This document shows positions 26,537 to 48,032 of a stretch of 64,000 nucleotides of DNA, piece after piece. The translations under genes and the position numbers were made by a program. The notes under the pieces were generated by a model. The model was not told where the DNA came from, did not search any database, and saw only the letters and a list, made by a program, of their open reading frames with translations. The stretch comes from Pseudomonas sp. B6002 (lineage in GTDB: Bacteria; Pseudomonadota; Gammaproteobacteria; Pseudomonadales; Pseudomonadaceae): NCBI RefSeq assembly GCF_013385985.1, contig NZ_JACAOY010000012.1, positions 536,064-600,063 on the forward strand, given 5' to 3'. Each line of letters begins with the position of its first letter. The first letter of the stretch is position 1.

Positions 26537-26742
26537 GTCATCAGGTATCGACTGAGTGAGTCCACGGCGCCCAGCAACAGCGCGTAGAGCCCCACATTGA
26601 ACAATGCCCGGTGCCAGACCAGGCGATAGAAGTGGACGCGGGTCAACAACCCGTGCACCACCAGGAACAACACATACGTAATGCCCATCAGCACCAGCAG
26701 CGTGGGCAGGAACACCCCGCTGATATCCAGATCACCGATCAT
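26533..26742 (-). CDS. DUF1656 small membrane protein
   Basis: 69 residues with two membrane helices (about 11-32, LPTLLVLMGITYVLFLVVHGLL, and about 48-62, FNVGLYALLLGAVDS). MIGDLDISGVFLP is the usual DUF1656 start. Such proteins sit between the FUSC transporter and the adaptor in many AaeB-type operons (AaeX-like). Here both neighbours overlap it by 4 nt. It is probably an inner-membrane accessory subunit of the pump. Confidence 0.9.
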   Translation of the reverse strand: MIGDLDISGVFLPTLLVLMGITYVLFLVVHGLLTRVHFYRLVWHRALFNVGLYALLLGAVDSLSRYLMT

Positions 26743-31381: not shown

Positions 31382-31972
31382 CTAGAAAGACGGCTCCCCA
31401 GAGTCTAGTCCAGGCGCCAACCAGCTCAGCAACCGCTCGACGCATTGCTGTGCCGAGAGCACACCGGTGTCCAGTTCCAGCGAGGCGTGCGGGGGCGGTT
31501 CGTAGGGTGAGCCAATGCCGGTAAACCCGGGCAATTCGCCTTTGCGGGCGCGGGCGTAGTGACCTTTGGGGTCACGCCCCTCGCACACCGCCAACGAGGC
31601 GCTGCACCAGACTTCCCGATAGTCGGCACCCAGGCGCTCGGCAAAAACCGCGCGCAACTCCACCAACGGCGCGATCATCGCCAGGATCACGATTTGCCCG
31701 TTTTCCACCAGCAACGCCGCGAGTTCACTGGCGCGGCGGATGTTTTCCAGGCGGTCGCTGTCGGCAAAGCCGAGGTCTTTGTTAAGGCCACCGCGCAGGG
31801 CATCGCCGTCGAGCACGATGCTGTGCCAGCCTTGTTCGAACAAGGCCGCTTGCAGCCCCTGGGCCAAGGTGGATTTGCCGGACGCGGGCAACCCGGTGAG
31901 CAGGATCGCCACACCGCGATGCCCATTGCGCGCCTCGCGCTGACGGCGGCTGATGCTCGCCGTCGGCGCCAC
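31382..31972 (-). CDS. cysC: Adenylylsulfate (APS) kinase
   Basis: About 196 residues. It phosphorylates APS to PAPS, the sulfate donor. The P-loop GLPASGKST is at 27-35, and LDGDALRGGLNKDLGFADSD and RLENIRRASELA are the APS-binding signatures. PGFTGIGSPYEPP near the end is the usual kinase lid/substrate segment. The start is uncertain: GTG at 31972 begins 4 nt after the TolC gene stop and gives the usual family length, TTG at 31987 is possible, and a start at 32131 would overlap the TolC gene and add junk-like Arg-rich sequence. It lies two genes downstream of a surface protein and near a sulfotransferase, which suggests a dedicated PAPS supply. Confidence 0.88.
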   Translation of the reverse strand: MAPTASISRRQREARNGHRGVAILLTGLPASGKSTLAQGLQAALFEQGWHSIVLDGDALRGGLNKDLGFADSDRLENIRRASELAALLVENGQIVILAMIAPLVELRAVFAERLGADYREVWCSASLAVCEGRDPKGHYARARKGELPGFTGIGSPYEPPPHASLELDTGVLSAQQCVERLLSWLAPGLDSGEPSF

Positions 31973-31976
31973 CAGG

Positions 31977-33491
31977 TTACTGGGCAACGGGACGCGGCGC
32001 CGGCGTTGCGATGTTGCCAGCGGCCCACGCCGATTCTCGGCTGGCGAGCGCCGTGGCGATGGTCTGCACGCGGTCCGAGTCCAGCTGTTCCGGCAGCGGG
32101 TCGAGGCCGGCGCTGGCGAAGATCTGGCCATAGGCGTTACGCAGGTCAGCGTAGGCCAGGTCTCGGCGCAGGTCGGCTTGCAGGGTGTTGAGCTCGCCCT
32201 GGATCAGGTCCAGCTCGCCCAGGCCTGCCGCTTCGTGGCGGTTGCGCAGTTGCGTGAGGATTTGCCCGTCGATATTGGCCAACTGGTCGTTGGTCTTGAA
32301 CTGGCGCACCGCGTCCTGATAGTTGGCGTTGGCCACGTAGACCTGCGCCAGCACCGCAATGGACATCGCCTGGCGCCGTGCGGTGGCGACTTCTTCACCG
32401 GCCTTGGCGACATCGATGGCCGCCGGTGCAGAGATCACGTTGAACAGGTTCCAGGTGACCTTGGCGCCATAGTCGGCCCAGCGGTTGTCCACCAGGAACG
32501 AGTTGCTGTCGTAATGCCCACCGGCCGAAAATTCCAGGCCCGGTAGCAGGCGCAGCATGGCCTTGCGCGTTTCGGCAGCGCTGATGCGGGTCTGGTAGTC
32601 CTGCTCACGCAACTCGGGGCGGTTGGCCAGGGCTTCCTGTTCCAGGCTGGCCAGGTTGACCTTGAGCTGAGGCACGTTGTAATCGTCAGGCGTAGCCAGC
32701 TTGAGGTCGGTGCCCATTGGCAGGTTGATCAAGGTGGCCAGTTCTGTCTTGGCCAGGGACAACGCACGGCGCTGCTCCTGCAATTGGCGCGTGGCTTCGA
32801 TCAGCGAGCGCTGGTAGCCCAGGGCTTGCACCGGATCGCCGATGCGTTGCTCGCTCATGCTTTGGCTGTTGCTCTGGGCCTGGTCGACCCGCGCCATCAG
32901 GCTGTCGATCTGGGTCAGCAAACGCTCGGCCGCCACGGCACGCCAGTAGGCGGAGCGCACGTCCTGCACGATGGTATTGATCACCTTGCGCCGGCGCTCC
33001 TGAATGATCAGGCGCTGGTCGCCTTGCTGCTTGGCACTGATGTAGCTGACGCCGAAGTCGAGCACGTTCCACACCATGGTCAGGTCCGCCACGCGACGGT
33101 CGCGGTCCTGGGAGGTCGACGGTTCCAGGGATTGGGTGCCGGTGAGCACGCTCTGGCTGCTGGAGGCGTTGGTATTGTTGCGCCCGGCGTAGCCTGCCGA
33201 CAGCGCCATGCGCGGCAGCATGTCGAAACTGGAGAGGTCCGATTGGCGCTTGGCCAAGGCCTCTTCCATGACTTTCAGGCGGCCTTCGAGGTTGTATTTC
33301 ACCGCCCGGGCCATGGCCTGGTGCAGCGTCAGCGGGCCGTTCAGCGGCTCTTGATCCTTGTACATGCCTTGCAGGTCGCTGCGGGCTCGCTGCTCACTGA
33401 CACTGCGTTCAATCGGCTCGCTGGTGACCGCACAACCACTGATCGCCAGCACCAGCAAGCTGATGCCGAACACCTTATGACCTGTCTTCAT
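31977..33491 (-). CDS. TolC-like outer-membrane efflux/secretion lipoprotein
   Basis: About 504 residues. MKTGHKVFGISLLVLAISGC is a lipoprotein signal with lipobox ISGC. Two internal repeats of long helices are typical of TolC channels (for example PLTLHQAMARAVKYN, where the family has its opening helix, and later RPELREQDYQTRISAAETRKAML). It would form the outer-membrane conduit. It starts 41 nt after the stop of the large surface protein, so the two are very likely one transcript and the channel is the expected export route for that protein. No ABC ATPase gene is adjacent. Confidence 0.88.
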   Translation of the reverse strand: MKTGHKVFGISLLVLAISGCAVTSEPIERSVSEQRARSDLQGMYKDQEPLNGPLTLHQAMARAVKYNLEGRLKVMEEALAKRQSDLSSFDMLPRMALSAGYAGRNNTNASSSQSVLTGTQSLEPSTSQDRDRRVADLTMVWNVLDFGVSYISAKQQGDQRLIIQERRRKVINTIVQDVRSAYWRAVAAERLLTQIDSLMARVDQAQSNSQSMSEQRIGDPVQALGYQRSLIEATRQLQEQRRALSLAKTELATLINLPMGTDLKLATPDDYNVPQLKVNLASLEQEALANRPELREQDYQTRISAAETRKAMLRLLPGLEFSAGGHYDSNSFLVDNRWADYGAKVTWNLFNVISAPAAIDVAKAGEEVATARRQAMSIAVLAQVYVANANYQDAVRQFKTNDQLANIDGQILTQLRNRHEAAGLGELDLIQGELNTLQADLRRDLAYADLRNAYGQIFASAGLDPLPEQLDSDRVQTIATALASRESAWAAGNIATPAPRPVAQ

Positions 33492-33532
33492 CCTTGTTCT
33501 GCCCCTGTTACTGCGCCTTGAGTTAAGTGTGT

Positions 33533-36500
33533 TCAGGCCTGCATTTCGCTGATGCCGACCTGTTGCAGTGCATGCGCCAGGTCAACCACCTGGCGTTGTT
33601 CCGTGTCCTTGATCTGCTGCAATTGCTGACCAAGGGTTGGCGCGCCAACCACGCTGCGCATTCCGTGAGCCGGGTCGCTCACACCCTTGATCGATTTGCT
33701 CTCGAACGCCTTGAAGCCGCTGTCATCAGCGCTGTCGCGGATGAACAGGGTCGACAGGGTACTGGCCCCGAAGATCCCGCCATCCCCACCACCAAAACCA
33801 AGGAAGCCCTTGCCGGCGCCATCCCCGCCGCCGTCGGTATTGAACACCTGGGCGATGAAACTGGGAGCCAATGCACCGTGGTTGATGAAAATACTGCCCA
33901 CCGGAGGCAACCCGCCGCCCAATTCACGCTGCTCGAACAACGGCGGGAAGCCGAGGGGTGAACCCAGGTTGCCGGTCGGCTGGCCATAGATGATCGGCTG
34001 CAACGGCGCGTCGGGCGCACCTTGTGGTGGGGCGGGGTCGGTGGTGCGGAACAACGGGTCGCCCGTCAGTGCGATGGTGTTGATCCCATAGTTGTTGGAG
34101 TTGGCGTACCCGCTGCCGGCGTTCCCCGACAAGTCGGTGACCAGGCTGGTGTCGAGGGTGATGAAGTTGCTCGGGTCGGTGATATTCGCCGTCGGCGTCA
34201 GGGTGGCTGTCCAGGTCTTGCCGCCGTCGCTGCTGGCCAGGTTGGACAACACGCCATTGGCCACGCTCAGGTCCGACAAATCAAAGCCGGTGACTTTCTC
34301 GCTGAAGGTGAAGGTCACGGTGCTGGTCTGGCCCACGGTCAGGTTCGGGTTGGAGACCGAGATGGTCGCGGTGGGCCGGTCGCCATCCACGCCATAGTTG
34401 TTGGATATGGCAATGCTGGCCCCTGCGTTGCCCGCCATGTCATTCACCTGGCTGGTATCCAGCACGATCAGGTTGGTGGCGTCGGTAACCGCCGCGGTCG
34501 GCGTCAGGGTTGCAGTCCAGGTTTTTCCACCGTCGGCGCTCATCAAGTTGGACAACACACCGTTGGCGACACTCAGGTCAGACAGGTCAAAACCGCTCAC
34601 CACTTCACTGAAAGCGATGGTAACGGTCGTCGTCTGGCCAATACCAAGGTGGTTGTTGGCCACGGTAATGGTTGCGGTCGGGAGTTGGGTGTCAATGCTG
34701 AAGTTATTGGAATCGGTGACCCCCACGCCCGCGTTGCCCGAGCCATTCGTCACGCCGCTGTTATTCAGGGTGATGAGATTGGTGGCGTCGGTGACATTGC
34801 TGCCAGGCGTGAAAGTGGCGGTCCAGGTGATGCCACCGTCGCTGCTGCTCACAGCGCTCAATGTGCCATTGGCGATGCTCAAGTCGGCGTTGTCGAAACC
34901 GCTCACCGCTTCGCTGAACGTGATGGTGACAGAGGAAGTTTCCCCGGCCTTGAGCGAGGTGTCGGCGATGACAATGGTCGCGGTCGGCACCGCAGTTTGC
35001 ACCTGGTAATTTGCCGAGCTGGTAGTTCCGGTACCGGTGTTGCCAGCCAGGTCGGAAATACCGGTGTTGTTCAGCACAATCAGGTTAGTGATGTCGGTAA
35101 CCCCGATGTTCGGCGTGAATGTAGCCGTCCAGGTGACGCCGCCGTCGCTGCTACTGACGTTGCTCAGCGTGCCATTGGCGATGCTCAGGTCAGCGTTGTC
35201 GAAACCGGTCACAGCTTCGCTGAACGTGATGGTTACCAGCGAGGTTTCACCTGGCCGCAGGTTGGAATCGCTCATGACGATGGTCGCGGTCGGGCGCTGG
35301 CTGTCGACGGCATAGGTGTTGGAGTCGGTAGTCCCGCTGCCTGCGTTACCCGCAAGGTCCGTGATGCCGGTGTTGTCCAGCGTGATCAGGTTGGAGGTAT
35401 CGGTGATACCTGCGGCCGGCGTATAGGTGGCCGTCCAGGTGATCCCGCCATCACTGCTGCTCACAGCACTCAGTGTGCCGTTGGCGACCGTCAGGTCGGC
35501 ATTGGTGAAACCGGTCACCGCTTCACTGAAGGTGATGGTCACCAGGCTGGTCTGGCCGACGCCGAGCGCCGTATCGGCGACCACAATGGTGGCGGTCGGG
35601 CGCACGGTATCGATTGAATAATTGTTCGAGTCGGTGGTGCCGCTGCCGGCGTTTCCGCTCAGGTTCTGCACGCCGCTGTTGTCCAGCGTGATCAGGTTGG
35701 TGGCGTCGGTGATGTTGGTGGTCGGCGTAAAGGTCGCCGTCCAGGTGATGCCGCCGTCGCTGCTGCTGATCGCGCTCAACGTGCCGTTGGCAATGGTCAG
35801 GTCAGCGTTGGTGAAACCGGTCACCGCCTCGCTGAAGGTGATGGTCACCAGCGAGGTTTCGCCGATTTTCAGCGCATTGTCGGCAATGATGATGGTTGCG
35901 GTCGGTGCCACGGTGTCGATGGTGTAGTTGTTGGAGTTGGTCGTGCCGCTGCCGGCGTTGCCCGCAAGATCCACGATGCCGGTATTGGCCAGCACGATCA
36001 GGTTGCTCGCGTCGTTGACGCCCACGTTCGGGGTGAAGGTCGCCGTCCAGGTGATGCCACCGTCGCTGCTGCTCACGGCGGTCAGCGTACCGTTGGCAAT
36101 TATCAGGTCGGCGTTGGTGAAGCCGCTCACCGCTTCGCTGAAGGTGATGGTCACCAGCGAGGTTTCACCGACCGTGAGGTTGCTGTCGGCGACCACAATG
36201 GTCGCGGTTGGCCGCACCGTATCGATGGCGTAGTTGTTGGAGTCGGTGGTGCCGCTGCCGGCGTTGCCCGACAGGTCGACGATGCCGGTGTTGTCCAGGG
36301 TAATCAGGTTGGTGGTATCGGTGACGCTGGCGCTCGGGGTGAACGTCGCGGTCCAGGTGATGCCGCCATCACTGCTGCTGACCGCGCTCAACGTGCCGTT
36401 GGCGACCGTCAAGTCGGCGTTGGTGAAACCGCTGACCGCTTCGCTGAAGGTGATGGTCACCAGTGAGGTTTCACCGATCCGCAGGTTATTGTCGGCCACC

Positions 36501-39500
36501 ACGATGGTCGCGGTCGGGCGCACGGTATCGATGGCGTAGTTGTTGGAGTCGGTAGTGCCACTGCCGGCGTTGCCGTTCAGATCTGCGATGCCGGTATTGT
36601 TCAGCGTGATCAGGTTGGTCGCGTCGGTGATGCTGGCGGTCGGCGTTAACGTCGCCGTCCAGGTAATGCCGCCGTCGCTGCTGCTCACCGCCGTCAACGT
36701 ACCGTTGGCAATCGTTAGATCGGCGTTGGTGAAACCGGTCACCGCTTCGCTGAAGGTGATGGTCACCAGTGAGGTTTCGCCGATTTTCAGCGCGTTGTCC
36801 GCCACCACGATGGTTGCGGTCGGCCGCGCAGTGTCGATCGCGTAATTGTTGGAATTGGTGGTGCCACTGCCGGCGTTGCCGGCCAGATCGACGACCCCGG
36901 TGTTGTCCAGGGTGACCAGGTTGGTGGTGTCGGTAATGTTGCTGGTCGGCGTCAGCGTGGCGGTCCAGGTGATGCCGCCGTCGCTGCTGCTCAGGCCGGT
37001 CAGGGTGCCGTTGGCCACTGTCATGTCGGCGGTGGTGAAGCCGCTGACCGCTTCGCTGAAGGTGATGGTCACCAGCGACGTTTCACCCGCCGCCAGACTG
37101 GTGTCGGCAACCACAATGGACGCGGTCGGCCGCACGGTATCGATCACGTAATTGGCCGAATCAGTCGTGCCGCTGCCGGCGTTGCCGGCCAGGTCAGCGA
37201 TACCGGTATTGTCCAGGGAGATCAGGTTGGTGGTGTCAGTGATGCTGGCCGTCGGGGTGAACGTTCCGGTCCAGGTGATGCCGCCGTCGCTGCTACTCAC
37301 TGCGCTCAGCGTGCCGTTGGCGATGGTCAGGTCGGCGTTAGTGAAGCCGGTCACCGCCTCGCTGAAGGTAAAGGTCACCACCGAGGTATCGCCGATCTTC
37401 AACGCCGTGTCGGACATCACGATAGTCACGGTCGGCCGTGCGGTGTCGATCGCGTAATTGACCGAACTGGTCGTGCCGACGCCCGCCACGCCGTCGCTGA
37501 TGGCGGTCACCCCGGTGTTGTCGAGGGTGATCAGGTTGGTGCTGTCGGTAATGTTGTTGGTAGGCGTGAAAGTCGCGGTCCAGGTCAGGCCGCCGTCGCT
37601 GCTGCTGACCGATGTCAGCGTGCCGTTGGCGATGGTCAGGTCGGCGTTGGTAAACCCGGCGACTGCCCGGCTGAAGGTGATGGTCACCAGCGAGGTTTCG
37701 CCGATTTTCAGGGCCGTGTCCGACATCACAATGGTCGCGGTCGGCGGTTCCACATAGGCGGTGTTGAGCGTGCCGCCGTTGTTGTAGATCGCCGCGAAGG
37801 CCAACGGAACACTCCCCGTCACGCCGCCGCCCAACTCTGCACCGCCCGAGCCACTGCCGGCCGCGTTGCCGCTGATGGCACTGAAGTTGGACGACGTAAT
37901 CAGCACTGTGCCGCCCTGGTTCCAGATTGCGCCGACACCGCGACCGCCGTCGCCACCGTTCAGGTTGTTGCTGCCCTGGCCGCTGCCGCCGCCGCCGCCG
38001 CCACCCGCGCCGATGTTATTGCTGATGACCGAGGTGCCGATGATTTTCAGGGTGCCGGTCGAGGCGTTGTAAATGCCGCCGGCCGCATTGCCGCCGACGC
38101 CGCCGACCTTGTCCCAACCGGACCCGCCGCCGCCGCCGCCGATGGAAATAGTGCCGTTGCTGGCCGTACCGCCATTGCCGCCGTTGCTGTAATAAGACAC
38201 GCCAACCCCGCCGGCCCCGCCGGTTGTGGAACCGCCGCGCCCGCCCATGTGCGTCGCGTCATAGCCGCCGCCATAGCCGCCGGCGCCACCGCTGCCAGCC
38301 TGCCCGCCCAGCGTGCCGGTGCCCGGCCCGGCGGTCCCGCCGTGCCCGCCGCCCTGACCGCCCAGGCCGCCACCACCGCCACCGCCGCCGCCGTAGTTGG
38401 CGCCCGTGACACCGCCGCCACCGCCGCCGCCCGCCGCTGCGTTGCCGGTGACTGAAACGTTATTCAAGGTCAGGATACCGGCGTTGAAAATCCCGCCGCC
38501 CATGGCGCCGGTTGCCCCGTAGCCGCCATTGCCGCCATTGCCGGAAACCAGACCACGAGTGATGACCAGACCGTCCAGCGTCACCGTACTGCCGGAGGTG
38601 ATTTCCACCACCCGCGTCTTGTATTGACCATCAAGGGTAACGTCAGCGACGCCGTCGTTATTCAGGTCACCGTCCACGGTGATGTTCTTGTTGATCAGCA
38701 ATTCAGAGGTGAGCTGCACCGTCATACTGCTGCTGAACGTCACAATATCGCCGTTCTGCGCCGAAGCCAGAGCCGCGCGCAGCGAGCCCACCCCGGTGTT
38801 CGCGTTGTTGGTCGCGGTCCACGTGGCCAGACCCCACTGGTAGTCGTTCATGGCTTTGGTCGACAGCACGTTGGCGCTTTCGATGGTGCCGGTGGCGATC
38901 TCCAGGTCCCAGTCACCGCCCACGCCGGTGCGGTTGGTCGACGCCGCCACGTCACGGCCGGTCAGTTGCGCCAGGGAATCAACGAAATTCAGCCCGCGCT
39001 CGCCTTCGGCGGTGTAGCAGCCGTAGATCAGGATGTCGCCGCCGACATTCATGTCCTTGCCGATTTGCCCCAGCACCGCGCTGCGGGCAGCCACGTTATC
39101 CGCCGACAAGTACGTGGTGCCGAGCCACAGATCGCCCGCGTTGCCGTGGGCGATGATTTGCACCGAGCTGACGCCCTGATGCGTATCGAGGTAATCAGCA
39201 ATTTGCTGCAGGCCGTCCTTGCTGCCGTCCAGCTGTACCACCTGGGTTCCGGGCGCCACGCCCTGCAGCAAGCTGGCGGAGTCTTTTACCCGGGCGTCGA
39301 CAAACACCACGGTTTGCCCCGGCACCGCCACGGGTGCAGCGGCTGGCGCATCGGCCTGGCCATGGGTGTCCTTGCTTGCGACCGGGTGGTCGCCGGTCGG
39401 CGCCTTGGCCGCGTCAGCGGTGGGGTGGCTGTCGGGCTGCGCCACGTCGGCTACGGTGGCGGCGACGGCGCCATCGAACAGCATGCGCGGTTCAAGGGGC

Positions 39501-39568: not shown

Positions 39569-39609
39569 GCTGCTCACCCGGCGTCGAACGTTCTTTGAGA
39601 GAAAATAAA

Positions 39610-39637
39610 AACGCCGCGATCAATTGATCGCGGCGTT
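39610..39637 (-). terminator. Strong rho-independent terminator at the sulfotransferase stop
   Basis: A perfect 28-bp palindrome (arm AACGCCGCGATC, centre AATT) overlaps the last codons and stop of the sulfotransferase gene. On the minus strand it is followed by TTTTTATTTTC, so it should end transcription just before the surface protein gene. Confidence 0.85.
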
Positions 39638-40477
39638 GGCCTTCATACGAATCACATTGGCGGCACTGGCTGAGCCGTCCTGCCAAAACGACAACTCGGT
39701 GTACTGCTGGAACAGGTCCGGCGGCAAAATCGTGCGCCGCGCCTGCAGGCGCACCTTGGGCTGGACCTTGTGCAAGCCGGACACACCCAGCGCCTGGTCA
39801 AACTCGGGCGCGTCGTAGACGAGGTTGTCGAAGTCATGCTCAAACCACGGCTCGCCGATAAAGTCGTACACCAGCCGCAGTACCCGCTCCGGGGCCTGAC
39901 TGAGCAGGTCGTAATCGACGATCAGCAATGAGTCGGCGTGTTCGCCGTAATAGGCTTCCTTGAGCGCCGCCCACGAGAAGCCCACCAACCGGTTGCGCTG
40001 CGCCAGGGTTTCACAGCGGCTGTACACCGTGTTGCGCTCGACATCGTCGCCAAACAGCTTGGTGTTTTCGAAAGGATTGGCGCGGTACAGCCGTTCCAGG
40101 CTGTCCATGATCCAGGCGACGTTGCGCACGCAGGCAATGACTTTGGATTGGGGAAACAGGTCATGCAGCGCGGGCATGCGCGCGCACCACTGGCGGTTGG
40201 TGTCGAACACCACCGGCGTGGAGGCCTTGTCGGCGTAGTAGGAATCGAACAGGCCGCGCAACAGGCGGCGACGGGTATTGGCGTCAATCACCGCGCCAAA
40301 CTCGCTGCCAGCGCTGCACTGCGCCAACACACCGTTGAACAAGGTCCCTACGGGGCTGCTCATGCCCGCGTGAAAACGCGGGTTCTGCAGCAAAATCGCC
40401 GAGAGCAGGGTGGACCCTGAACGGGGCAATCCGGAGATAAAGTGATACTGCAATCCCTTCACCACTTTGTCAGACAA
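39620..40477 (-). CDS. PAPS-dependent sulfotransferase
   Basis: About 285 residues, soluble. The PAPS-binding P-loop FISGLPRSGSTLL (loop at 17-23) is at the N-terminus. ACVRNVAWIMDSLERLY (near 115) is the 3'-phosphate-binding region with Arg, and IVDYDLLSQAPERVL supports the fold. It would transfer sulfate from PAPS to an acceptor that the sequence does not reveal. The encoded start is TTG at 40477. GTG codons at 40465 and 40462 are alternatives. Neighbours include APS kinase, which makes PAPS, and the giant surface protein, so that protein or its glycans are the likely acceptor. The 3' end is built into a terminator. Confidence 0.88.
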   Translation of the reverse strand: MSDKVVKGLQYHFISGLPRSGSTLLSAILLQNPRFHAGMSSPVGTLFNGVLAQCSAGSEFGAVIDANTRRRLLRGLFDSYYADKASTPVVFDTNRQWCARMPALHDLFPQSKVIACVRNVAWIMDSLERLYRANPFENTKLFGDDVERNTVYSRCETLAQRNRLVGFSWAALKEAYYGEHADSLLIVDYDLLSQAPERVLRLVYDFIGEPWFEHDFDNLVYDAPEFDQALGVSGLHKVQPKVRLQARRTILPPDLFQQYTELSFWQDGSASAANVIRMKANAAIN

Positions 40478-40523
40478 AAATCCATTTGTGGCCGTAGAGT
40501 AGTTCAGGATTGCGCGATCAACT

Positions 40524-40562
40524 AGTGGTCAATTGCCACTATTTTGGTATTCCCCTAATACC
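40524..40562. promoter_or_regulatory. Two inverted repeats upstream of the sulfotransferase gene
   Basis: AGTGG-N7-CCACT at 40524-40540 and GGTATT-N5-AATACC at 40546-40562 lie in the 94-base gap. The first contains AATTGCCACTA (40531-40541), which recurs upstream of the HlyD-type gene at 48080-48090. It is a candidate operator shared by the system. Confidence 0.45.
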
Positions 40563-40571
40563 GAATGGATA

Positions 40572-42185
40572 TTAACGGCAGCCCTCGGGCTGCGAAGGCT
40601 CTGGCCCGCGGCACAGCACAAACAACCGCGCCCGCGCCCCGCCGCCGTCCTGCTGCAAAAGTTGTTTCCAGCCTTCGGGAATCGGCGCGAAATCGTCCGG
40701 TATGTCGGTGCTGCTGATCAGCCACACGCGCCGGGTATCGGCGGGTAATGCCGACAAACGGTCGAGGTAAATGCGCCCGCCGTCCTGGTCCACCAGGGTG
40801 CCGAAGCCATAGGCATTCGGCCGGGTCGGGGTGCCATCGGGTTTGGGCGGCGTGTAGAGCTGCAATTGGGCATCGGTCTGGTCGTAATACACGTAGCTGA
40901 GGTACCACATCATGTCGCTGAGGACGATGCGGTCGTCTTCCTGGTAGTTACGGTTGACGAACTCCACCGGCACGTTGAACTGGTCATGTTCATCCACGGT
41001 GAAGTTGTTCTTCAGGCCCAGCAACTCCACGCCCACAAACAGCACGAACAGCGCGGCCCCCAGCCAAGACCGGCGTGCGGGCAAACGGTCGATGGCCAGC
41101 GCGACCAGGATCGGCAAGCCCAACGCGTACACGGTGAGGTAGCGCTCGATAAACACCGGCGAGATAAAAGACACGCCGTACACCAGCAGCAACGGCAGCA
41201 GGAAGAACAACGCCAGCAGACAGGCGGGCCGTTGGTGTTCACGGTCTCGCCAGGCGGTGACACCCACCACGGCGATCAGCAGCAGCGGAAACAACCAGAA
41301 CAGCGGTTTCCAGAACCCGATGCCTTCGTCCTGAAGCATGAACTGCCAGATCATCGACGGTACGGAGATCAACGTGACCGGGTCTTCCCAGCCAATATCA
41401 CCGCCAACCTTGAGCTGTTCGACGTGCTGGATCAGGTCCAGCAAATTCGGCAGCCACGGCAAGTACAGCGCGACGATCACAGCGTTGGCGCACCACCAGG
41501 ACGGGCGCAGGATGAGGCGTTGGCCAGCCGGCTGGCCGCGGCACAACACCCCCAGGTAAGCCCAGTGCACCAGCACACACAGTGCGGTGAAGTAATGGGT
41601 GTAAAAGCCGGCCGTCATCAGCAGCACGTAGGCCGCCAGGTAGCGCGTGCGCTGAGGCTGGCGAATCCAGTAGACCAATGCCAGCGTCGCCCCCAAAAGC
41701 CACACAGCCAGCAGCGAGTACATGCGCACTTCCTGGCTGTAGCGTACGGCGGTAGGAAATAACGCCAGCAGCACTCCCGCCAGCACGGCGGCGCGACGAG
41801 TGGACACCTGCCGCGTCAGCCAGATACCCAGGCCCACCGCGACCACGCCAGGAATGGCACTCATGCCGCGAATTGACCAGATGCCGTCACCGAACAGCTC
41901 GATCCATCCCCGCAGCATGAAAAAATACAACGGCGGGTGTACGTCATGGGCCGCGTGAAACCACAGGTCGGCCATGGCGTATTCGCTGAGCAGCAGGCTG
42001 GAGCCTTCGTCACCCCAGATCGCCGAGGCGGTCAGGCAATAAAAACGCACGCCCATGGCCAGCGCCAGGATCGGCACCCACCATAAACGGCTGAGCCAAC
42101 CAGCACCTTCCCAGGCGCCTTCGAGGCGATTGACTGCGGGAAATACCCCAACCTTGTCGTCTTGTTCTACCACAGACCGTCGCAC
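40572..42185 (-). CDS. GT-C fold membrane glycosyltransferase (PMT/ArnT-like)
   Basis: About 537 residues with some 10-12 membrane helices. The first large periplasmic loop holds the acidic pair in IWGDEGSS (Asp59-Glu60) and the HPPLYF motif (83-88), both typical of PMT/ArnT-like lipid-linked sugar transferases. The C-terminal ~120 residues are soluble. The GTG at 42185 with AGGGGA 7 nt upstream is preferred to an ATG at 42305, whose extra 40 residues look non-coding. It would move a sugar from a polyprenyl carrier to a periplasmic acceptor. Lying 94 nt upstream of the sulfotransferase, it may glycosylate the surface protein. Confidence 0.85.
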   Translation of the reverse strand: MRRSVVEQDDKVGVFPAVNRLEGAWEGAGWLSRLWWVPILALAMGVRFYCLTASAIWGDEGSSLLLSEYAMADLWFHAAHDVHPPLYFFMLRGWIELFGDGIWSIRGMSAIPGVVAVGLGIWLTRQVSTRRAAVLAGVLLALFPTAVRYSQEVRMYSLLAVWLLGATLALVYWIRQPQRTRYLAAYVLLMTAGFYTHYFTALCVLVHWAYLGVLCRGQPAGQRLILRPSWWCANAVIVALYLPWLPNLLDLIQHVEQLKVGGDIGWEDPVTLISVPSMIWQFMLQDEGIGFWKPLFWLFPLLLIAVVGVTAWRDREHQRPACLLALFFLLPLLLVYGVSFISPVFIERYLTVYALGLPILVALAIDRLPARRSWLGAALFVLFVGVELLGLKNNFTVDEHDQFNVPVEFVNRNYQEDDRIVLSDMMWYLSYVYYDQTDAQLQLYTPPKPDGTPTRPNAYGFGTLVDQDGGRIYLDRLSALPADTRRVWLISSTDIPDDFAPIPEGWKQLLQQDGGGARARLFVLCRGPEPSQPEGCR

Positions 42186-42384
42186 CTCAATTCCCCTGAA
42201 ACTGCCCGTTGGCCGGGCAAAACCTGCACACGTGCAAACAAGCGCCACTCTAGGACAAAAGCCCCGGTTTCGCTCGCTGTTTCGCTGCCGACAGGCGGCG
42301 CGCAACAGCTGCGTCTACGCTCTGCGATGACACCAGATCGATTGGCGTCACACCCCGTATAGCCCATACAAGGATGAGCGATTC

Positions 42385-42975
42385 ATGGAAGTATTCATCG
42401 GCACCATTCAACCCTTTGCGTTTAACTTTGCCCCACAAGGCTGGGCCTTGTGCGCCGGCCAGACCCTCTCCATCAACCAGAACCAGGCATTGTTCGCCCT
42501 GATCACTACCACCTATGGCGGCGATGGCGTGCAAACCTTCAAGTTGCCAGACCTGCAAGGCCGGCTGCCCGTCGGCCAAGGCAGCGGCGCGGGCCTGACC
42601 ACGCGCGTCATCGGCGAATTTTCCGGCACTGAATCCGTGACGGCCACGCTGGTCAACCTGCCGGTCCATACCCACACCGCCACCGCGATCACCGCCACCA
42701 CGGCGATCCAACTGACGAGCCTGACCAGCAACCCGGTGACAACACCCACCGCCACCAACTCATTTATCGGCGCCTCCGGCGGCGGACCAGGCAGCGCGTC
42801 GATCTACTCGGACCAACAGGGCGCCAACCCGGTGCCCCTCCAGGGTGTGAGCACCACGGTGACCAGCCCGACGATCGGCCCGGCCGGCCAGGGCCAACCC
42901 ATGGCGACCATGAACCCCTTCCTGGCGATCAATTTCAGCATTGCCCTGAACGGCATCTTTCCGTCACGCGGCTGA
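42385..42975 (+). CDS. Phage tail-collar domain protein (microcystin-dependent MdpB-like)
   Basis: About 196 residues. The tail-collar domain is obvious: MEVFIGTIQPFAFNFAPQGW, LCAGQTLSINQNQALFALI, TTYGGDGVQTFKLPDLQGR and LPVGQG. The remainder is Thr/Ser/Ala-rich, ending AINFSIALNGIFPSRG. No other phage genes are near, so it is not a prophage remnant. Members of this small family are found beside large surface-protein loci. AAGGATGAG precedes the ATG. It runs divergently from the glycosyltransferase gene, and the ~200-base gap holds the promoters. Its role is unknown. Confidence 0.88.
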   Translation: MEVFIGTIQPFAFNFAPQGWALCAGQTLSINQNQALFALITTTYGGDGVQTFKLPDLQGRLPVGQGSGAGLTTRVIGEFSGTESVTATLVNLPVHTHTATAITATTAIQLTSLTSNPVTTPTATNSFIGASGGGPGSASIYSDQQGANPVPLQGVSTTVTSPTIGPAGQGQPMATMNPFLAINFSIALNGIFPSRG

Positions 42976-43031
42976 CGCACTGCCTTGGCCGAGGCTCGCG
43001 GGCCTCGGCACTTCTGACGTGGAGCCTTCCT

Positions 43032-43340
43032 ATGCTGAACCTGGTCACTCTCGAACACTTTCGACCGTTGCTGGCGCGCACCAGCGTGTTGTACCTGCCG
43101 GACGGTTCGGCGCTGCCGATCCAGGTGCAAAGCCTGCGCGAAACGCCGGACGCCACTATGCCCGGCGCCACTCGTGGAGCGTTCAGTGTGCAACTCAACA
43201 GCCTCGGCCCGACGGACTTCGTCGATGGCTTATGCCGCTTGCCACTGCCCGGCGCCACCCTGGAACAGGTGTTTGTGTCCCGGGAGCCCGCCATGGGCCG
43301 TGACAGCGAGCGCGGTTACTTCTGCATCGTATTCAACTGA
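43032..43340 (+). CDS. DUF6916-like small protein
   Basis: About 102 residues, cytoplasmic by sequence (MLNLVTLEHFRPLLARTS). The pattern FSVQLNSLGP, LPLPGATLEQVFVSREPAMGRD and YFCIVFN resembles a family often encoded next to tail-collar proteins. The DUF number is from memory and should be treated as tentative. It lies 56 nt downstream of the tail-collar gene, with GGAGCC upstream. Its 3' end overlaps the convergent GNAT gene by 25 bp. Role unknown, possibly assembly of the collar protein. Confidence 0.7.
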   Translation: MLNLVTLEHFRPLLARTSVLYLPDGSALPIQVQSLRETPDATMPGATRGAFSVQLNSLGPTDFVDGLCRLPLPGATLEQVFVSREPAMGRDSERGYFCIVFN

Positions 43341-43831
43341 GACGGGTACCACACCAACCGCTGCGCGGCGGGCGTCTGCTCCTCGACCCTAAACCCCAGC
43401 GCCAGGTAATGCTGGCGCGCCTGGGGGTTGCTGGCCCACACCACCGTGGCCACCGGGCAGAACACCTGCGTGGCAGCTTGCTGCACCCCTTTGAGCACCG
43501 CACGACCAAACCCCTGGCCGCGTGCCGCGGGGATAAACGCCAAATACAGCACGCGAATTTCATTGGGCCCGAAGTCTGCACTCAAGGCGCCGATGGGCGT
43601 GCCGAGCTTTTCGATCACGTAATGCAGGGCGCCAGGAAAATGCGTGTCCATGCCGGTTTCCTGGACTTGGAATTGCTGGCTGATCACTTCTTCTACCAGG
43701 CCTTGCTCGCCGTCGATCCACTGCAAATCCGCCCGCGCCGAGCGGTACAGGCTGTGCAAAAACGGCTGATCACTCGCCCGAGACGGGCGCATTTCCAGCC
43801 CCAGCGCCAACGCGCCCTCCTTGTTCATCAT
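43316..43831 (-). CDS. GNAT-family N-acetyltransferase
   Basis: About 171 residues. The acetyl-CoA-binding segment AARGQGFGRAVLKG (family R/Q-x-x-G-x-G/A) lies in the second half, after VLYLAFIP. The C-terminus has the usual NPQARQHYLALGF. The ATG at 43831 has AGGAG 9 nt upstream. A TTG at 43840 would leave no spacing. It begins 15 nt after the M50-HlyD gene stop, so it is the last gene of the exporter-like operon, and it overlaps the DUF6916 gene tail-to-tail. It may acetylate a component of the system. The substrate is unknown. Confidence 0.88.
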   Translation of the reverse strand: MMNKEGALALGLEMRPSRASDQPFLHSLYRSARADLQWIDGEQGLVEEVISQQFQVQETGMDTHFPGALHYVIEKLGTPIGALSADFGPNEIRVLYLAFIPAARGQGFGRAVLKGVQQAATQVFCPVATVVWASNPQARQHYLALGFRVEEQTPAAQRLVWYPSQLNTMQK

Positions 43832-43846
43832 CGCGTTCAACTCCTG

Positions 43847-45943
43847 TCAGAACCCGCTTTCCCGAACCCCCAACGCCGCTGCCCGTCGCCAGGCCACGCC
43901 CAGCACTGACTCGCTGCGCCCTTGCAGCACCACCACGCCGCGCAACGGTTGGTGTGGGGTTTCGATCGTTTGCACACTTTTCAACCGCGCGCCGTACTGG
44001 GCCTGCACCGGCTCCGGACGCTGGTTTTCATCGCGGCGCACGGCAATCGGCCCGTGGTGATCGGACGTCAGTGCCTCCTGGTCCAGATAGGCCACGCCGT
44101 TGGCGTCGATATCGGTCAATTCCACTGCGATGGCGGCGTGCATCGGGTCATCGGCGATAAACCGCCCGGTCGATCCTGGTGCAACCCGCCACAGTTCGGC
44201 TTCAGCCAGGTAACCGCGCAGGCGCGCGCCGTCTTCCACCACTCGCGCCAGCACGTCTTTGGGCGACAGCCAGCGACCCACGCTCAATTGCGGCAACACA
44301 TCGCGTACGGTGCCCGCGTGGGGGGCGCGCAACAGCAGACGCTCACGCTGGGCAGCCAACCCACGGTATTCGGCGAGGGCCTGTGACAGGCGTTGATCGT
44401 TGATGCCGGCGTCTGCCGCCGTTTCGCTGCGCCCGGCCTGGCGGCGCATTTGCAGCTGCAAAATCTCCACTTCACGGCGCACGATGCTTTGCCGGGCGTC
44501 CAGGTCCGGCGACTCCAGCTCCACCAGCACCTGGCCCTGGGTCACCACTTGGCCATCCACCACGCGCAATTGCTTGACCCGCGCCGCCACCGGCGCATGC
44601 AACGCGCTGGCCCGCCCGGCTTCAAGCATGGCGGGCAACTCCACCGCACTGCGCCACGGCACCACCAGCACCAGCACGATCAACGCCAGGCCCAAGCCGC
44701 TGAGCAGCACGCGGGGCGCGTGGGCCTGGCTGCGACGGCCCCACCATTCGCGCCACTCCTTGCAAATCGGCAGGAAGATGAACCACACCAGTTCCACCAG
44801 CATCAGGAAGATCCCCAGCAGCTTGAAGAACAGGTGATACACCGCCAGCGCAATCCCCAGGAACAACGCCGCCCGCCACAGCCACGACAGGTAGCCCCAC
44901 CACAGCAACCGCCGTTGCATCACCGGCGACCATGGTTCCGGCGCCGGCTCGCCGTAGCCGAACAGCGCCTCGCGCAGGCGCCAGCGGCACAGGGCAAAGG
45001 CGCGGCCTTGCAAATTGTCGACGCCCCATAAGTCGCTGATCAAAAAGTAACCATCAAAACGCATGAACGGGTTGAGGTTGATCGCCAGCGTCGTCAACCA
45101 CGTGGCGCTGGCCAGCATGAATGCGGCGGTGCGCGCCGGACCGTCCGGCAACAGTGACCAGGCCAGCAAGGCCACACACGCCAGCAGCAGTTCAGCCATC
45201 ACGCCACCGGCACCGATCATCAACCGTGCCCGGCGATCATTGACCCGCCAGGCGTCACTCACGTCGGTGTAGAACATCGGCAGCAACACCATGAACGCCA
45301 CGCCCATGCTCTGCACGCGACAACCGGCGCGCTTGGCCATAAACGCGTGGCCGAACTCATGGCATAACTTGGCAAAGAACAGCGCCACACCAAATGCGAG
45401 GGCGCCGCCCAGGCTGAACAGGTGCGGGAACGTCGCCAGGAAGCGCTGCCAATCGCGCGCAACCAAAAATATGCCCAGGCCCAGCACGATGGGCAAACCG
45501 TAGCGCAACAACCCCGGGCCGAAGCGCGCCAGCCATGGCCAGGCACGATTGAGAAACGCATCCGGCCGCCACAGCGGGATGCGGAAAAACAGGTATTGAT
45601 GCAGCAGCACCTGCCACAGGCTTTGCTTCTGGGCAGCGGCTTTATAGAGGTAGCTGGCGCGTTGTTCCGGGTCGAGAGCGGCGATCAGGTCGTGGGCGCG
45701 CAAGAAACCCAGCAGCTCTTCCACCTCGGAATCGCCCAGCGGCAAGCCCGGCTCGCGGTTGGCGGCTTGCAAGACTTTGTCCGGATCACCCAGCGACCAA
45801 TGGCGCAGCAGGCGAATGGCCGTAGCGCCCAATTTGAAATAGCGCCCGCGCACCGGGTCGGCCAGGGTCCAGCGGGGCGAACCATCCAGCGCCGGCCCAC
45901 TGCTGGACAGTTGCAGGTCGTCGCGCAGTTGAGGCAGGTTCAT
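43847..45943 (-). CDS. Site-2-protease-type M50 membrane protein fused to an HlyD domain
   Basis: About 698 residues. The N-terminal ~100 residues are soluble and helical, resembling a peptide-binding domain. A set of membrane helices follows, carrying the zinc site LCHEFGHAF (HEFGH at 195-199) and the second motif NLNPFMRFDGY (289-299). This is the M50 pattern, so catalysis is possible. After more helices comes a periplasmic HlyD-like part (about 430-640) with ALHAPVAARVKQLRVVDGQVVTQGQVL and a return half-motif RAPHAGTVRDVLP. It overlaps the upstream gene by 4 nt (ATGA). It probably joins an inner-membrane protease-like core to the adaptor in one export machine. Confidence 0.92.
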   Translation of the reverse strand: MNLPQLRDDLQLSSSGPALDGSPRWTLADPVRGRYFKLGATAIRLLRHWSLGDPDKVLQAANREPGLPLGDSEVEELLGFLRAHDLIAALDPEQRASYLYKAAAQKQSLWQVLLHQYLFFRIPLWRPDAFLNRAWPWLARFGPGLLRYGLPIVLGLGIFLVARDWQRFLATFPHLFSLGGALAFGVALFFAKLCHEFGHAFMAKRAGCRVQSMGVAFMVLLPMFYTDVSDAWRVNDRRARLMIGAGGVMAELLLACVALLAWSLLPDGPARTAAFMLASATWLTTLAINLNPFMRFDGYFLISDLWGVDNLQGRAFALCRWRLREALFGYGEPAPEPWSPVMQRRLLWWGYLSWLWRAALFLGIALAVYHLFFKLLGIFLMLVELVWFIFLPICKEWREWWGRRSQAHAPRVLLSGLGLALIVLVLVVPWRSAVELPAMLEAGRASALHAPVAARVKQLRVVDGQVVTQGQVLVELESPDLDARQSIVRREVEILQLQMRRQAGRSETAADAGINDQRLSQALAEYRGLAAQRERLLLRAPHAGTVRDVLPQLSVGRWLSPKDVLARVVEDGARLRGYLAEAELWRVAPGSTGRFIADDPMHAAIAVELTDIDANGVAYLDQEALTSDHHGPIAVRRDENQRPEPVQAQYGARLKSVQTIETPHQPLRGVVVLQGRSESVLGVAWRRAAALGVRESGF

Positions 45944-47262
45944 CAGAGGCCAACGCTCTGGCGTAGACCCGCCAGCGGCCGGCGCAACAGGTACAGCGCC
46001 AGCGGCGCGCGCTCACCATAGATCTTCGCCGTGCCGCGCAGGCCGATACGCGGCGGCGCGGCATCGAACTGCGCATCCAGGCGATAGGCCAATTGGCCGC
46101 CCGGCGTGGGCTGCGCTTCGTAGGCCGCGCGTTGCAGGGTGGCCAGGTAGCGTTGCAATGGGTCGCTGTCGAGAAACAGCGCGATTTGGGCGTTGGGCGC
46201 CAGGGCAATCGCATCGCCCACGGCCAGTTCGATGCGCAGCTCGGCCTGACCGGGGTCGGCGATCTGCAGCAAGCGTTCACCGGTTTGCACGGGTTTGCCG
46301 GTCCAACGCTCGGCGTCGGCAAAGACCGCAATACCGTCGCGCTCGGCGCGCACTTCGCTGCGCTTGAGCAGCTCACGGGCGTAGTCGCGTTCGGCGCGTT
46401 TTTGTTCGACGCGAGCGGCCAGCAGATCAATGCGCGAGCTGGATTCGGCATCGGCGAACGCGCGCTGGGCGTTGGCCTTGAGTTCGGCTTCCGCCACGCC
46501 CAGGGCGCGCGCGGCCACATCGGCCTGGGCGGTGAGGGTGGTGCTTTCAAAGCGCAGCAGCAGGTCGCCGGTTTTCACCGTCTGGTTGGGCTTGACCAGG
46601 AATTCAGCGATCACCCCATCCAGGGGTGCTGCTACGACCTGACCGGCCAGTGGCACCACTTCGGCTGGCGCCAATACCGACTGGCGCACCGGAATCAGCA
46701 GCATCAACAGCAACGCGACCACCACCAGCACCTGGCGTTTGCGCGTCAGGCGCAGGCGCCACGGCCGGCGCGGTTGCAGCGCATGCCAGGCATGGCTGTA
46801 GGTGCCGCCCAATTGCGAAAGCAATACTTGCTCGGCCGGGTTCCACGGCGTATCCCGTGCCAACCACAGGCCGCCGAACACTTGGTTTTGAGGGTCGATC
46901 AACGGCAACCAGAACACATGGGCGGCCGATAAGCTCTGCCAGTCGGCTTGCACCGCATCGCTCAATGGCTCGGCAGGCACCACCCGCGCCGTCGCGCCCA
47001 AACCCTGGGCGTGCAACTGCGCCACCGCCTGCTCGACAAATGCCACGAACGGCGCATTCGGATCGACACTGCTCACCGCCGTCACCGCCTGCACTTTGCC
47101 GGCGATCAGCAAGGCGGCATGGCGATAACCGAACAGCGGCTGCCCATCGTTGACCAGGCTGTAGGCCAGTTGCTCGGTGGTACGCGCGGCGCGGGTCTGG
47201 CGCTCAAGGTCGAGGAACTGCGCGAACACCCGCTCGGTGTTGCCCGGGATCGGTGCGTTCAT
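45943..47262 (-). CDS. GAF-like domain plus HlyD membrane adaptor
   Basis: About 439 residues. The N-terminal 160 residues are soluble and resemble a GAF domain (RTTEQLAYSLVNDGQPLFGYRHAALLI...FGGLWLARD). A single membrane helix follows (about 176-191, VLVVVALLLMLLIPVR), then an HlyD-type periplasmic part with APLDGVIAEFLVKPNQTVKTGDLL and a coiled-coil hairpin. A cytoplasmic sensor joined to a secretion adaptor is unusual and may gate export by a small ligand. It overlaps both neighbours as ATGA, so the three HlyD-containing proteins should be made together. Confidence 0.9.
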   Translation of the reverse strand: MNAPIPGNTERVFAQFLDLERQTRAARTTEQLAYSLVNDGQPLFGYRHAALLIAGKVQAVTAVSSVDPNAPFVAFVEQAVAQLHAQGLGATARVVPAEPLSDAVQADWQSLSAAHVFWLPLIDPQNQVFGGLWLARDTPWNPAEQVLLSQLGGTYSHAWHALQPRRPWRLRLTRKRQVLVVVALLLMLLIPVRQSVLAPAEVVPLAGQVVAAPLDGVIAEFLVKPNQTVKTGDLLLRFESTTLTAQADVAARALGVAEAELKANAQRAFADAESSSRIDLLAARVEQKRAERDYARELLKRSEVRAERDGIAVFADAERWTGKPVQTGERLLQIADPGQAELRIELAVGDAIALAPNAQIALFLDSDPLQRYLATLQRAAYEAQPTPGGQLAYRLDAQFDAAPPRIGLRGTAKIYGERAPLALYLLRRPLAGLRQSVGL

Positions 47263-48032
47263 TGCAGTTGGGCGAAGTGCGCGGTGCCGCTCATGCCGGC
47301 CATCAAGCCTGTGGCATTGGGCAGAGTGGCGACCAACAGCAGCGTCTGGCTGCCCTCATCGATACGCGCGCCGAGGCGCTTGACCGTGGCGCTGAACGCC
47401 TGGCCGGTTTCGTCGGGGGTGAAGTTGAAGGTCTGGCCGGGCTTGAGTTTGGCCATCCAGCTTGACGGCACCAACAGGTGAATTTCCAGGCTGCGGTTGT
47501 CGACGATTTCCAGCAGCGGCGCGCCCGCCGACACGCTCTCGTAGCGCTGGACCTTGCGCTGCACCACTTGGCCGTCATACGGCGCCAGCACGCTGCAGCG
47601 CTTGACCTGCACCTGGTACACCTGGGACTGAGCTTGAGTTTCGGTGAGCTTGGCTTCGGCGCGGGCCACTTCAAAACGCCCGACGGAATTGAGCGCCGCC
47701 AATTGCTTGTTGTGGGCCAGTTCTTCACCGGCGCCACGGCTGGCGGCTTGGGCGGCGTTGAGCTGGGCCTGGTAGGCCGAGCAGTCAAAACGCGCCAGGG
47801 TGTCGCCTTTCTTGAACGATTCGCCCTCGCTGAACGGCAGCTCGACGATACGCCCCGACAGCTCGCTGGCCAGCATCGCCTGGTCGCGGGCGCGCAATAC
47901 GCCACGGGCCTCGCTGCTGGCGCTGGCTGCGGCGGCGGCCGGCTGATCCAGTAATGGGTCCTGGGCCAGGGCCAACGGTGCAATGCCCATCCAGCAGGAA
48001 AATCCGAACACCCATCCACGTAACGGCTTCAT
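47259..48032 (-). CDS. Periplasmic HlyD-type adaptor protein
   Basis: About 257 residues. A signal peptide (MKPLRGWVFGFSCWMGIAPL to ALA) is followed by a short linker. The first lipoyl half-motif (MLASELSGRIVELPFSEGESFKKGDTL), a short coiled coil (about 85-145), the return half (VLAPYDGQVVQRKV) and a barrel domain come next. It resembles RND-type membrane fusion proteins but is shorter. It is the first gene of the exporter-like operon with a GGGAGG ribosome site, and the motif AATTGCCACTA lies 48 nt upstream. Confidence 0.9.
   Translation of the reverse strand: MKPLRGWVFGFSCWMGIAPLALAQDPLLDQPAAAAASASSEARGVLRARDQAMLASELSGRIVELPFSEGESFKKGDTLARFDCSAYQAQLNAAQAASRGAGEELAHNKQLAALNSVGRFEVARAEAKLTETQAQSQVYQVQVKRCSVLAPYDGQVVQRKVQRYESVSAGAPLLEIVDNRSLEIHLLVPSSWMAKLKPGQTFNFTPDETGQAFSATVKRLGARIDEGSQTLLLVATLPNATGLMAGMSGTAHFAQLQ

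Follow-up and report, generated by a model that had tools for sequence, protein, structure and literature searches.

A recurrent M50-HlyD gene block as a candidate exporter of giant LEPR-motif proteins

We analyzed a block of genes at positions 31382-48032 of a 64,000-nucleotide stretch of the Pseudomonas sp. B6002 genome (hereafter the window; 62% GC, genome size 6.68 Mb, G000:C4), using a list of open reading frames (ORFs) together with Pfam and NCBIfam scans. Three overlapping minus-strand genes open the block, encoding a periplasmic HlyD adaptor, a GAF-HlyD adaptor, and an M50-HlyD fusion, with overlaps of four bases and then one base. These are followed on the same strand by genes for a GNAT acetyltransferase, a GT-C glycosyltransferase, a sulfotransferase, a giant protein with DUF4347 and Big_12 domains, a TolC-like lipoprotein (OEP), and an APS kinase, whose listed ORF overlaps the OEP gene and thus starts too far upstream (Table 1). 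The original prediction, made from the sequence, had presented these genes as one candidate system that modifies and exports the giant. Each listed gene was present by ORFs and Pfam, but the Collar and DUF6916-like genes lie on the plus strand between the GNAT and GT-C genes, against all other genes of the stretch.

Table 1. Features of the analyzed block, numbered from the first letter of the window
Feature	Position	Strand	Evidence and remarks
Periplasmic HlyD/RND-type adaptor, 257 aa, core gene 1	47259..48032	-	Pfam HlyD_3 2e-19; signal peptide by eye
GAF-HlyD adaptor, 439 aa, core gene 2	45943..47262	-	HlyD_3 2e-14; cytosolic GAF-like N-terminal extension, HlyD periplasmic part
M50-HlyD fusion, 698 aa, core gene 3	43847..45943	-	M50 1.8e-7; probable PqqD/RRE-like N-terminus, putative M50 zinc protease, HlyD
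PqqD/RRE-like domain, aa 25-87 of M50-HlyD, presumed cytosolic	45683..45871	-	
HExxH zinc motif HEFGH, aa 195-199 of M50-HlyD	45347..45361	-	
TolC/OEP outer-membrane channel lipoprotein, 504 aa, core gene 4	31977..33491	-	Pfam OEP 1.5e-38; lipobox LAISGC by eye
Giant surface protein, 2014 aa, presumed cargo	33533..39577	-	LEPR motif, DUF4347 4.6e-51, 12 Big_12 repeats
LEPRMLFDGA motif, aa 28-37 of giant, D flavor, presumed export signal	39467..39496	-	
DUF4347 domain of giant	38834..39310	-	Predicted caspase-like (clan CD) fold, H144 and C187
C-terminal LxxQL-type box (LGQQL) of giant	33620..33634	-	Post hoc pattern
Sulfotransferase, accessory	39620..40477	-	Sulfotransfer_3 1.9e-15
GT-C/PMT glycosyltransferase, accessory	40572..42305	-	PMT_2 1.7e-12; true start probably further in
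Phage-tail-collar-domain protein, accessory	42385..42975	+	Collar 1e-27
DUF6916-like protein, accessory	43032..43340	+	E 2e-4, below Pfam cut-off
GNAT acetyltransferase, accessory	43316..43840	-	5.5e-8
APS kinase, accessory	31382..32131	-	APS_kinase 1.2e-47; true start inside listed ORF

Four of these genes recur together in other genomes. Among the neighborhoods of 40 M50-HlyD loci of Gammaproteobacteria and 80 named loci (39 Pseudomonas-type and 41 distant), we found the OEP-HlyD-GAF-HlyD-M50-HlyD block, whole or partial, with a giant mostly adjoining. The block stands beside giants in Alpha- and Gammaproteobacteria, Nitrospirota, and others, and its recurrence across phyla is far above chance. 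The distant loci carried OEP in 30, HlyD in 33, GAF-HlyD in 38, and M50 in 39 cases. HlyD was present in all 39 Pseudomonas-type loci and GAF-HlyD in 38, with OEP in just 7 because most of those stretches stop within the giant. In loci such as those of Pectobacterium (L183, L187), Serratia, Methylococcaceae (L203), and a Micavibrio-labelled metagenome-assembled genome (L185), the giant is found upstream of OEP. Nitrospira (L179, L195, L196) and most Pseudomonas-type loci have it downstream of M50, and in the Pseudomonas-type loci OEP comes after the giant. A Desulfobulbaceae locus (L208) holds the four-gene block at a contig end.

The remaining genes of the stretch are accessories of Pseudomonas-type loci. 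Sulfotransferase (27 of 39), GT-C (11), GNAT (34), DUF6916 (27), and APS kinase (3) were each found in 0 of the 41 distant loci, and Collar is nearly as restricted (33 of 39 and 2 of 41, respectively). The APS kinase could supply the sulfate donor PAPS to the sulfotransferase. Modification is therefore not a general part of the system, whereas the export half of the original prediction is supported by the recurrence of the core next to DUF4347/LEPR giants and by its co-occurrence with them. The restriction of the accessories to Pseudomonas-type loci, complete or nearly complete, led us to reject a modification-and-export island as the unit. Beyond the APS kinase end of the block, the window also encodes a FUSC-type pump with HlyD and OEP partners (24207-28817), a separate and known kind of efflux system, and a 503-aa Fic-domain protein just outside the stretch (29518-31029).

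We compared the distribution of the exporter, scored by M50-HlyD, with that of DUF4347 in an even class sample of 321 genomes (M50-HlyD at E<=1e-20) and a phylum sample of 219 genomes (E<=1e-15). The class sample held DUF4347 in 40 genomes (39 above cut-off) and M50-HlyD in 48, with both in 29 versus 6.0 expected (odds ratio 36, Fisher p 8.6e-20). The corresponding phylum-sample counts were 79, 77, and 68 versus 27.8 expected (odds ratio 90, Fisher p 1.5e-34). The samples share a few genomes, and without class-sample genomes the phylum counts were 76, 73, and 66. Counted by genus (n = 117), DUF4347 occurred in 37, the exporter in 39, and both in 32 (p 8e-17). Numbers of M50 and DUF4347 matches per genome also rose together (Spearman 0.83 in the phylum sample, zeros included, with at most five M50 candidates scored per genome). 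The co-occurrence that the original prediction had proposed as a check was thus far above expectation in both samples. In 14 of the 29 both-positive class-sample genomes the two lay on the same contig, always on the same strand, and 12 of these pairs were within 6 kb. The remaining two pairs were 38.6 and 35.4 kb apart, with ORFs of 8630 and 10477 aa from the DUF4347 end filling most of the gap; the other 15 genomes had DUF4347 and exporter on separate contigs. Several phylum-sample genomes (G331, G376, G392, G424, and similar ones) had up to five M50-HlyD matches, the scoring limit, and up to eight DUF4347 matches each, and G325 had a single open frame of 14,920 aa with DUF4347.

The giants share an N-terminal LExRxx(F/L)(D/S)A motif, in which L28, E29, R31, and D35 were invariant among 20 aligned giants, with a basic N-terminus ahead and small residues behind. 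Searching the class sample for LExRxx(F/L/Y/M) near the N-terminus, we found that DUF4347 proteins bear the motif in 27 of 28 readable exporter-positive genomes and 3 of 11 exporter-negative genomes (p 2.2e-5). One of the 27 was added by eye (G258, QERRILFSAD; p 1e-4 without it), and G193, cut by a contig end, was not readable. The three exporter-negative carriers were G245, G286, and G123, the last with an exporter fragment at a contig end, under threshold. Of the other exporter-negative genomes, five (G034, G128, G165, G186, G305) had signal-peptide-like hydrophobic N-termini, and three (G218, G249, and G068, a weak match) had neither these nor the motif. In a fresh test on 10 further exporter-negative phylum-sample genomes, including one sub-threshold match (G404) and two incomplete genomes (G468, G488), nine lacked the motif in readable DUF4347 proteins, many of which start just before the domain; the motif was present in one (G496, 57% complete). 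Conversely, giants beside exporters can bear the motif without a DUF4347 match, as in G224 (4381 aa, LEPRLLFDGAA), G112 (LEQRVVLDAAA), G306, and G229. Short ORFs of L288 (449 aa), L364 (291 aa), and L184 (466 aa) matched the motif by chance and were left out of the giants. By these alignments and pattern counts, the exporter is linked to the LEPR motif rather than to the DUF4347 domain. This accounts for much of the separate occurrence of DUF4347 and exporter, including DUF4347 genomes without exporter (11 of 40 in the class sample, 11 of 79 in the phylum sample). The original prediction had named frequent separate occurrence as one result that would overturn it; this was mostly not seen, yet both do occur separately in some genomes. 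The Micavibrio-labelled genome offers an example of small LEPR cargo: next to its cassette, two ORFs of about 965 aa stand in tandem, and each has LEKRLMLDAS close to its start (L185, 240-6034).

A second motif, [FL]xxQ[LV] and often [FL][ST]xQ[LV], lies about 15-35 residues from the C terminus of clade-A giants, mostly followed by an L/A-rich stretch. It was seen in the window giant and in L091, L098, L168, L183, L191, L203, L291, and L365. The pattern, chosen post hoc and tested on 30 of 43 rows after dropping 13 relatives or doubtful rows, occurred in 22 versus a shuffled mean of 3.5, with at least one (L194) by chance, and its strict form in 13 versus 0.6. This box is possibly an anchoring or assembly signal.

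The giants fall into two flavors by the residue that follows the LEPR motif, either D (as in LEPRMLFDGA) or S (as in LEPRLLLSAD), and these pair with two exporter clades, even within single genomes. On an M50-HlyD tree (FastTree, 84 rows, nine near-copies left out), 31 D and 16 S labels need one change; 14 of these 47 labels were taken from elsewhere in the genome or contig, and L120 (LEPRILLAAD) was entered as an S. In multi-copy genomes such as G376, clade A went with D giants in 9 of 9 and clade B with S giants in 5 of 5 readable stretches, and clade and flavor matched in all 8 readable stretches examined further. Readable motifs came from 14 of 38 cassette stretches and then 8 of 19; otherwise, the giant ran off the stretch or the motif was not seen. 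Counting pairs on the same stretch or contig, we found 43 A-D, 11 B-S, one B with alanine (L120, tallied apart here), and none crossed (p 1e-11, phylogeny ignored).

The recurrent block, the co-occurrence, the linkage of motif and exporter, and the matching of flavor and clade support one interpretation: OEP, HlyD, GAF-HlyD, and M50-HlyD would form a dedicated exporter for giant surface proteins that carry the N-terminal LExRxx(F/L)(D/S)A segment as their signal. On this comparative evidence we give it a probability of about 0.6.

The HlyD and TolC parts and the giant Big/cadherin-repeat substrates also resemble type 1 secretion. A distant LapB-like ATP-binding cassette (ABC) exporter might move the giant, with the cassette adding adaptors and a protease that trims or retains it, as LapG does for LapA. 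In line with this, part of PMC10868602 describes an approximately 8000-aa Vibrio LEPR-XLL protein with RTX domains, placed in its C-terminal part, suggesting that some LEPR proteins may take other routes. Part of PMC7730722 treats giant DDxP proteins as likely type 1 cargo. A 704-aa ORF with an ABC signature also lies near a clade-A cassette in Serratia marcescens (L199, 15079-17191); it may belong to a neighboring type 1 system. Several points argue against such a variant: OEP and adaptors come with the cassette itself, clade B has a SecA paralog alongside, and RTX nonapeptides number 0 in the window giant, with two or more occurring in 0 of 21 LEPR giants that lie wholly within their stretch. 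The Pfam matches of the window stretch, where the original prediction had also noted no ABC ATPase, include none (the remainder of the genome was not searched), nor any resistance-nodulation-division (RND) or major facilitator superfamily (MFS) inner-membrane transporter. ABC-signature ORFs lay within 6 kb of the cassette at only 9 of 84 loci. Three of these have a length near 620 aa, and Pfam shows one of the three, L104, to be ABC-F-like (ABC_tran and ABC_tran_CTD). An ABC link was ruled out as a general feature of the cassette, and we regard the type 1 variant as unlikely.

The SecA paralog qualifies the claim that the system lacks an ATPase, which holds for the window stretch. A SecA-like gene of about 660 aa occurs in 15 of the 40 gammaproteobacterial loci, in most directly 3' of M50-HlyD. 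Three of these proteins were scanned, giving SecA_DEAD (4.5e-96 in L110), P-loop_SecA, and PP_bind. The best 17 matches to the paralog in 321 genomes all outscore any match of housekeeping length and fall in 16 genomes, all exporter positive (base rate 48/321). On the tree, all SecA-bearing rows lie inside a 24-row clade holding the S labels (three changes); the S clade often has its own short SecA paralog. A single full SecA was found in the window genome, along with a sub-threshold match, and no SecA paralog is encoded with its cassette. A PAS-GGDEF-EAL protein was found beside one clade-B cassette (L119, 5021-8146; only L119 scanned), and its similarity cluster occurs in 7 of 40 loci; it is perhaps a matter of c-di-GMP control or background.

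The SecA paralog would also suit a two-step route in which LEPR is an odd Sec signal, SecYEG alone delivers the giant to the periplasm, and the cassette acts later in outer-membrane translocation and quality control, with M50 cutting stalled or anchored chains. The motif is preceded by basic and followed by small residues, as would suit a Sec signal, and the periplasmic HlyD looks soluble. The best 12-residue Kyte-Doolittle mean at the N-terminus of the window giant was 1.6, versus 1.9-2.8 in six DUF4347 proteins of the Sec type that have no tie to the exporter and whose signal peptides look ordinary. The window HlyD signal peptide also scored 1.6, so hydropathy fails to separate LEPR N-termini. 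The earlier statement that the giant has no classical signal peptide therefore stands as to a strong hydrophobic N-terminus, but this measure is not decisive. The E, R, and D within the motif argue against a Sec signal, as do the more hydrophobic signal peptides of those six proteins. So does the N-terminal RRE-like domain of M50-HlyD, which would be cytosolic, and recognition would therefore probably precede translocation. We consider Sec-only delivery improbable, marginally more so than the type 1 variant.

The M50-HlyD fusion carries the motifs of M50/S2P intramembrane zinc proteases, and its protease activity is putative. HExxH was invariant in aligned sets A1 and A2, it and N-x-(N/S)-P...D(G/A)Y were each present in 92 of 93 rows, and weak matches were obtained to the S2P proteases MjS2P (2.5e-4) and RseP (0.008) (3b4r, 7w6x). 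The AlphaFold2 (AF2) model has a mean pLDDT of 87. At its N-terminus, a three-stranded sheet is followed by three helices (bbb-aaa), as in the PqqD/RRE fold, and profile-profile alignment (hhalign) matched this region to PqqD (prob 79%, P 1.9e-6); both observations fit the candidate PqqD/RRE-like domain. In the GAF-HlyD protein, one transmembrane segment was placed by eye at about aa 172-190. The GAF label is backed by the family, in which Pfam GAF matched 7 of 38 members scanned at E<=0.1 (best 1.8e-4), but not by the window protein, where Pfam found no GAF.

NCBIfam daptide_HExxH matched M50-HlyD at 1.4e-43 and 149.5 bits over aa 32-391 (cut-off, 300). This likeness to daptide and YydH proteases, the RRE-like domain, and adaptor and TolC parts that are common in efflux could point to an exporter of small molecules or peptides, akin to those of daptides and other ribosomally synthesized and post-translationally modified peptides (RiPPs), lying near giant genes by chance. 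Co-occurrence, adjacency, and signal-flavor matching with the giants speak against it, and no short-ORF cluster occurred in at least 4 of the 40 loci among ORFs of at least 80 aa, the lengths examined. We judge it very improbable.

For the dedicated exporter, we propose a sequence of steps based on domain predictions. In the cytosol, the LEPR segment would be bound by the RRE-like domain of M50-HlyD, just as leader peptides are by RREs. SecA and SecYEG would thread the chain through the inner membrane, with housekeeping SecA serving clade A, including the window, and the short paralog serving clade B. The M50 core would then cut the signal within the membrane, releasing the N-terminus into a passage formed by three HlyD adaptors. 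The chain would exit via the TolC-like channel, and GAF-HlyD would gate the complex in response to a cytosolic ligand. The DUF4347 domain, predicted to have a caspase-like clan CD fold with a conserved His-Cys pair, may then process the exported protein. In Pseudomonas-type loci only, the sulfation, glycosylation, and acetylation genes would decorate the product. Taken together, this would make an undescribed secretion class in which a cytosolic RRE reads LEPR, SecA or its paralog pushes, and an M50-adaptor fusion replaces the ABC, RND, or MFS transporter and frees the cargo by cutting its signal. The D and S dialects would be two orthogonal machines able to coexist in one cell. We advance this fuller scheme tentatively, at somewhat under even odds.

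Several observations weigh against the exporter interpretation, which draws on genomics and prediction throughout. Passage across the inner membrane in clade A is its weakest step. No inner-membrane pore and no dedicated motor were found for that clade, and the use of SecYEG is deduced solely from the clade-B SecA paralog. In the three paralogs scanned, Pfam found no scaffold domain, and the weaker, secondary SecA matches of other genomes were left unsorted. A cluster of soluble ABC-ATPase-like ORFs, of which L104 is the one member scanned, occurs in 6 of 40 loci. The RRE assignment is weak at the sequence level: Pfam PqqD matched 0 of 43 members of set A2 and one clade-B homologue at E 0.003, below cut-off and among likely chance matches. 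Whole-model structure searches of M50-HlyD barely probed this part, and the matches listed were HlyD-like adaptors and biotinyl domains only, which neither support nor exclude the RRE assignment. The exporter occurs without DUF4347 in 19 of 48 class-sample and 9 of 77 phylum-sample genomes, and the Fisher tests, except that by genus, ignore phylogeny. The motif occurs without an exporter match in G245 (99% complete) and G286 (85% complete), and exporter-positive G077 has a Sec-type DUF4347 protein. The shared hydropathy value of 1.6 belongs on this side as well.

Very large proteins marked by the LEPR-XLL motif and DUF4347 are numerous in bacteria. We found no description of this exporter, or of the surface route of LEPR-XLL/DUF4347 giants, among the papers listed by our searches (titles and abstract openings; open-access full text, no preprints, and few subscription papers), and part of PMC8262886 places DUF4347 in the putative type VI secretion effector PA0256. 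If the interpretation is true, these giants would be tied to one widespread exporter, the unlikeness of their N-terminus to an ordinary signal peptide would be explained, and DUF4347 would gain a predicted fold. It would also define a secretion machine built around an intramembrane protease, without a transporter ATPase in the cassette, and its two signal dialects lend themselves to direct swap experiments.

Among known systems, type 1 secretion and LapA-like two-step systems (LapBCE, LapG/LapD) share with the cassette HlyD and TolC-like parts, a giant repeat surface protein, a display-linked protease, and an N-terminal element. By the usual features of type 1 secretion, an HlyD-type adaptor and a TolC-type channel were present and RTX nonapeptides, common but not universal, were not found. 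The window stretch further differs in having no ABC ATPase, an M50 domain fused to an adaptor, three adaptors, and a LEPR signal. Tripartite efflux pumps have the membrane fusion protein and outer membrane factor families in common with the cassette, and a section of PMC8277102 names ABC, RND, and MFS as the energized transporters of tripartite systems; in the cassette, the inner-membrane position is apparently taken by the M50 protease and the cargo would be a protein. The M50 metalloproteases of daptide and YydH (LiaK) RiPP systems (NF041824, NF058609) likewise have an M50 membrane core, but M50-HlyD falls below the model cut-off, is fused to HlyD, and would serve a giant protein. Accessory Sec (SecA2) resembles clade B in placing a SecA paralog beside giant repeat protein genes, whereas the cassette is Gram-negative and the paralog is absent from the window. 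Finally, M50-HlyD shares the HExxH and N-x-N-P...DG motifs with S2P/RseP and differs from them in its RRE-like N-terminus, its HlyD C-terminus, and its place in an exporter operon.

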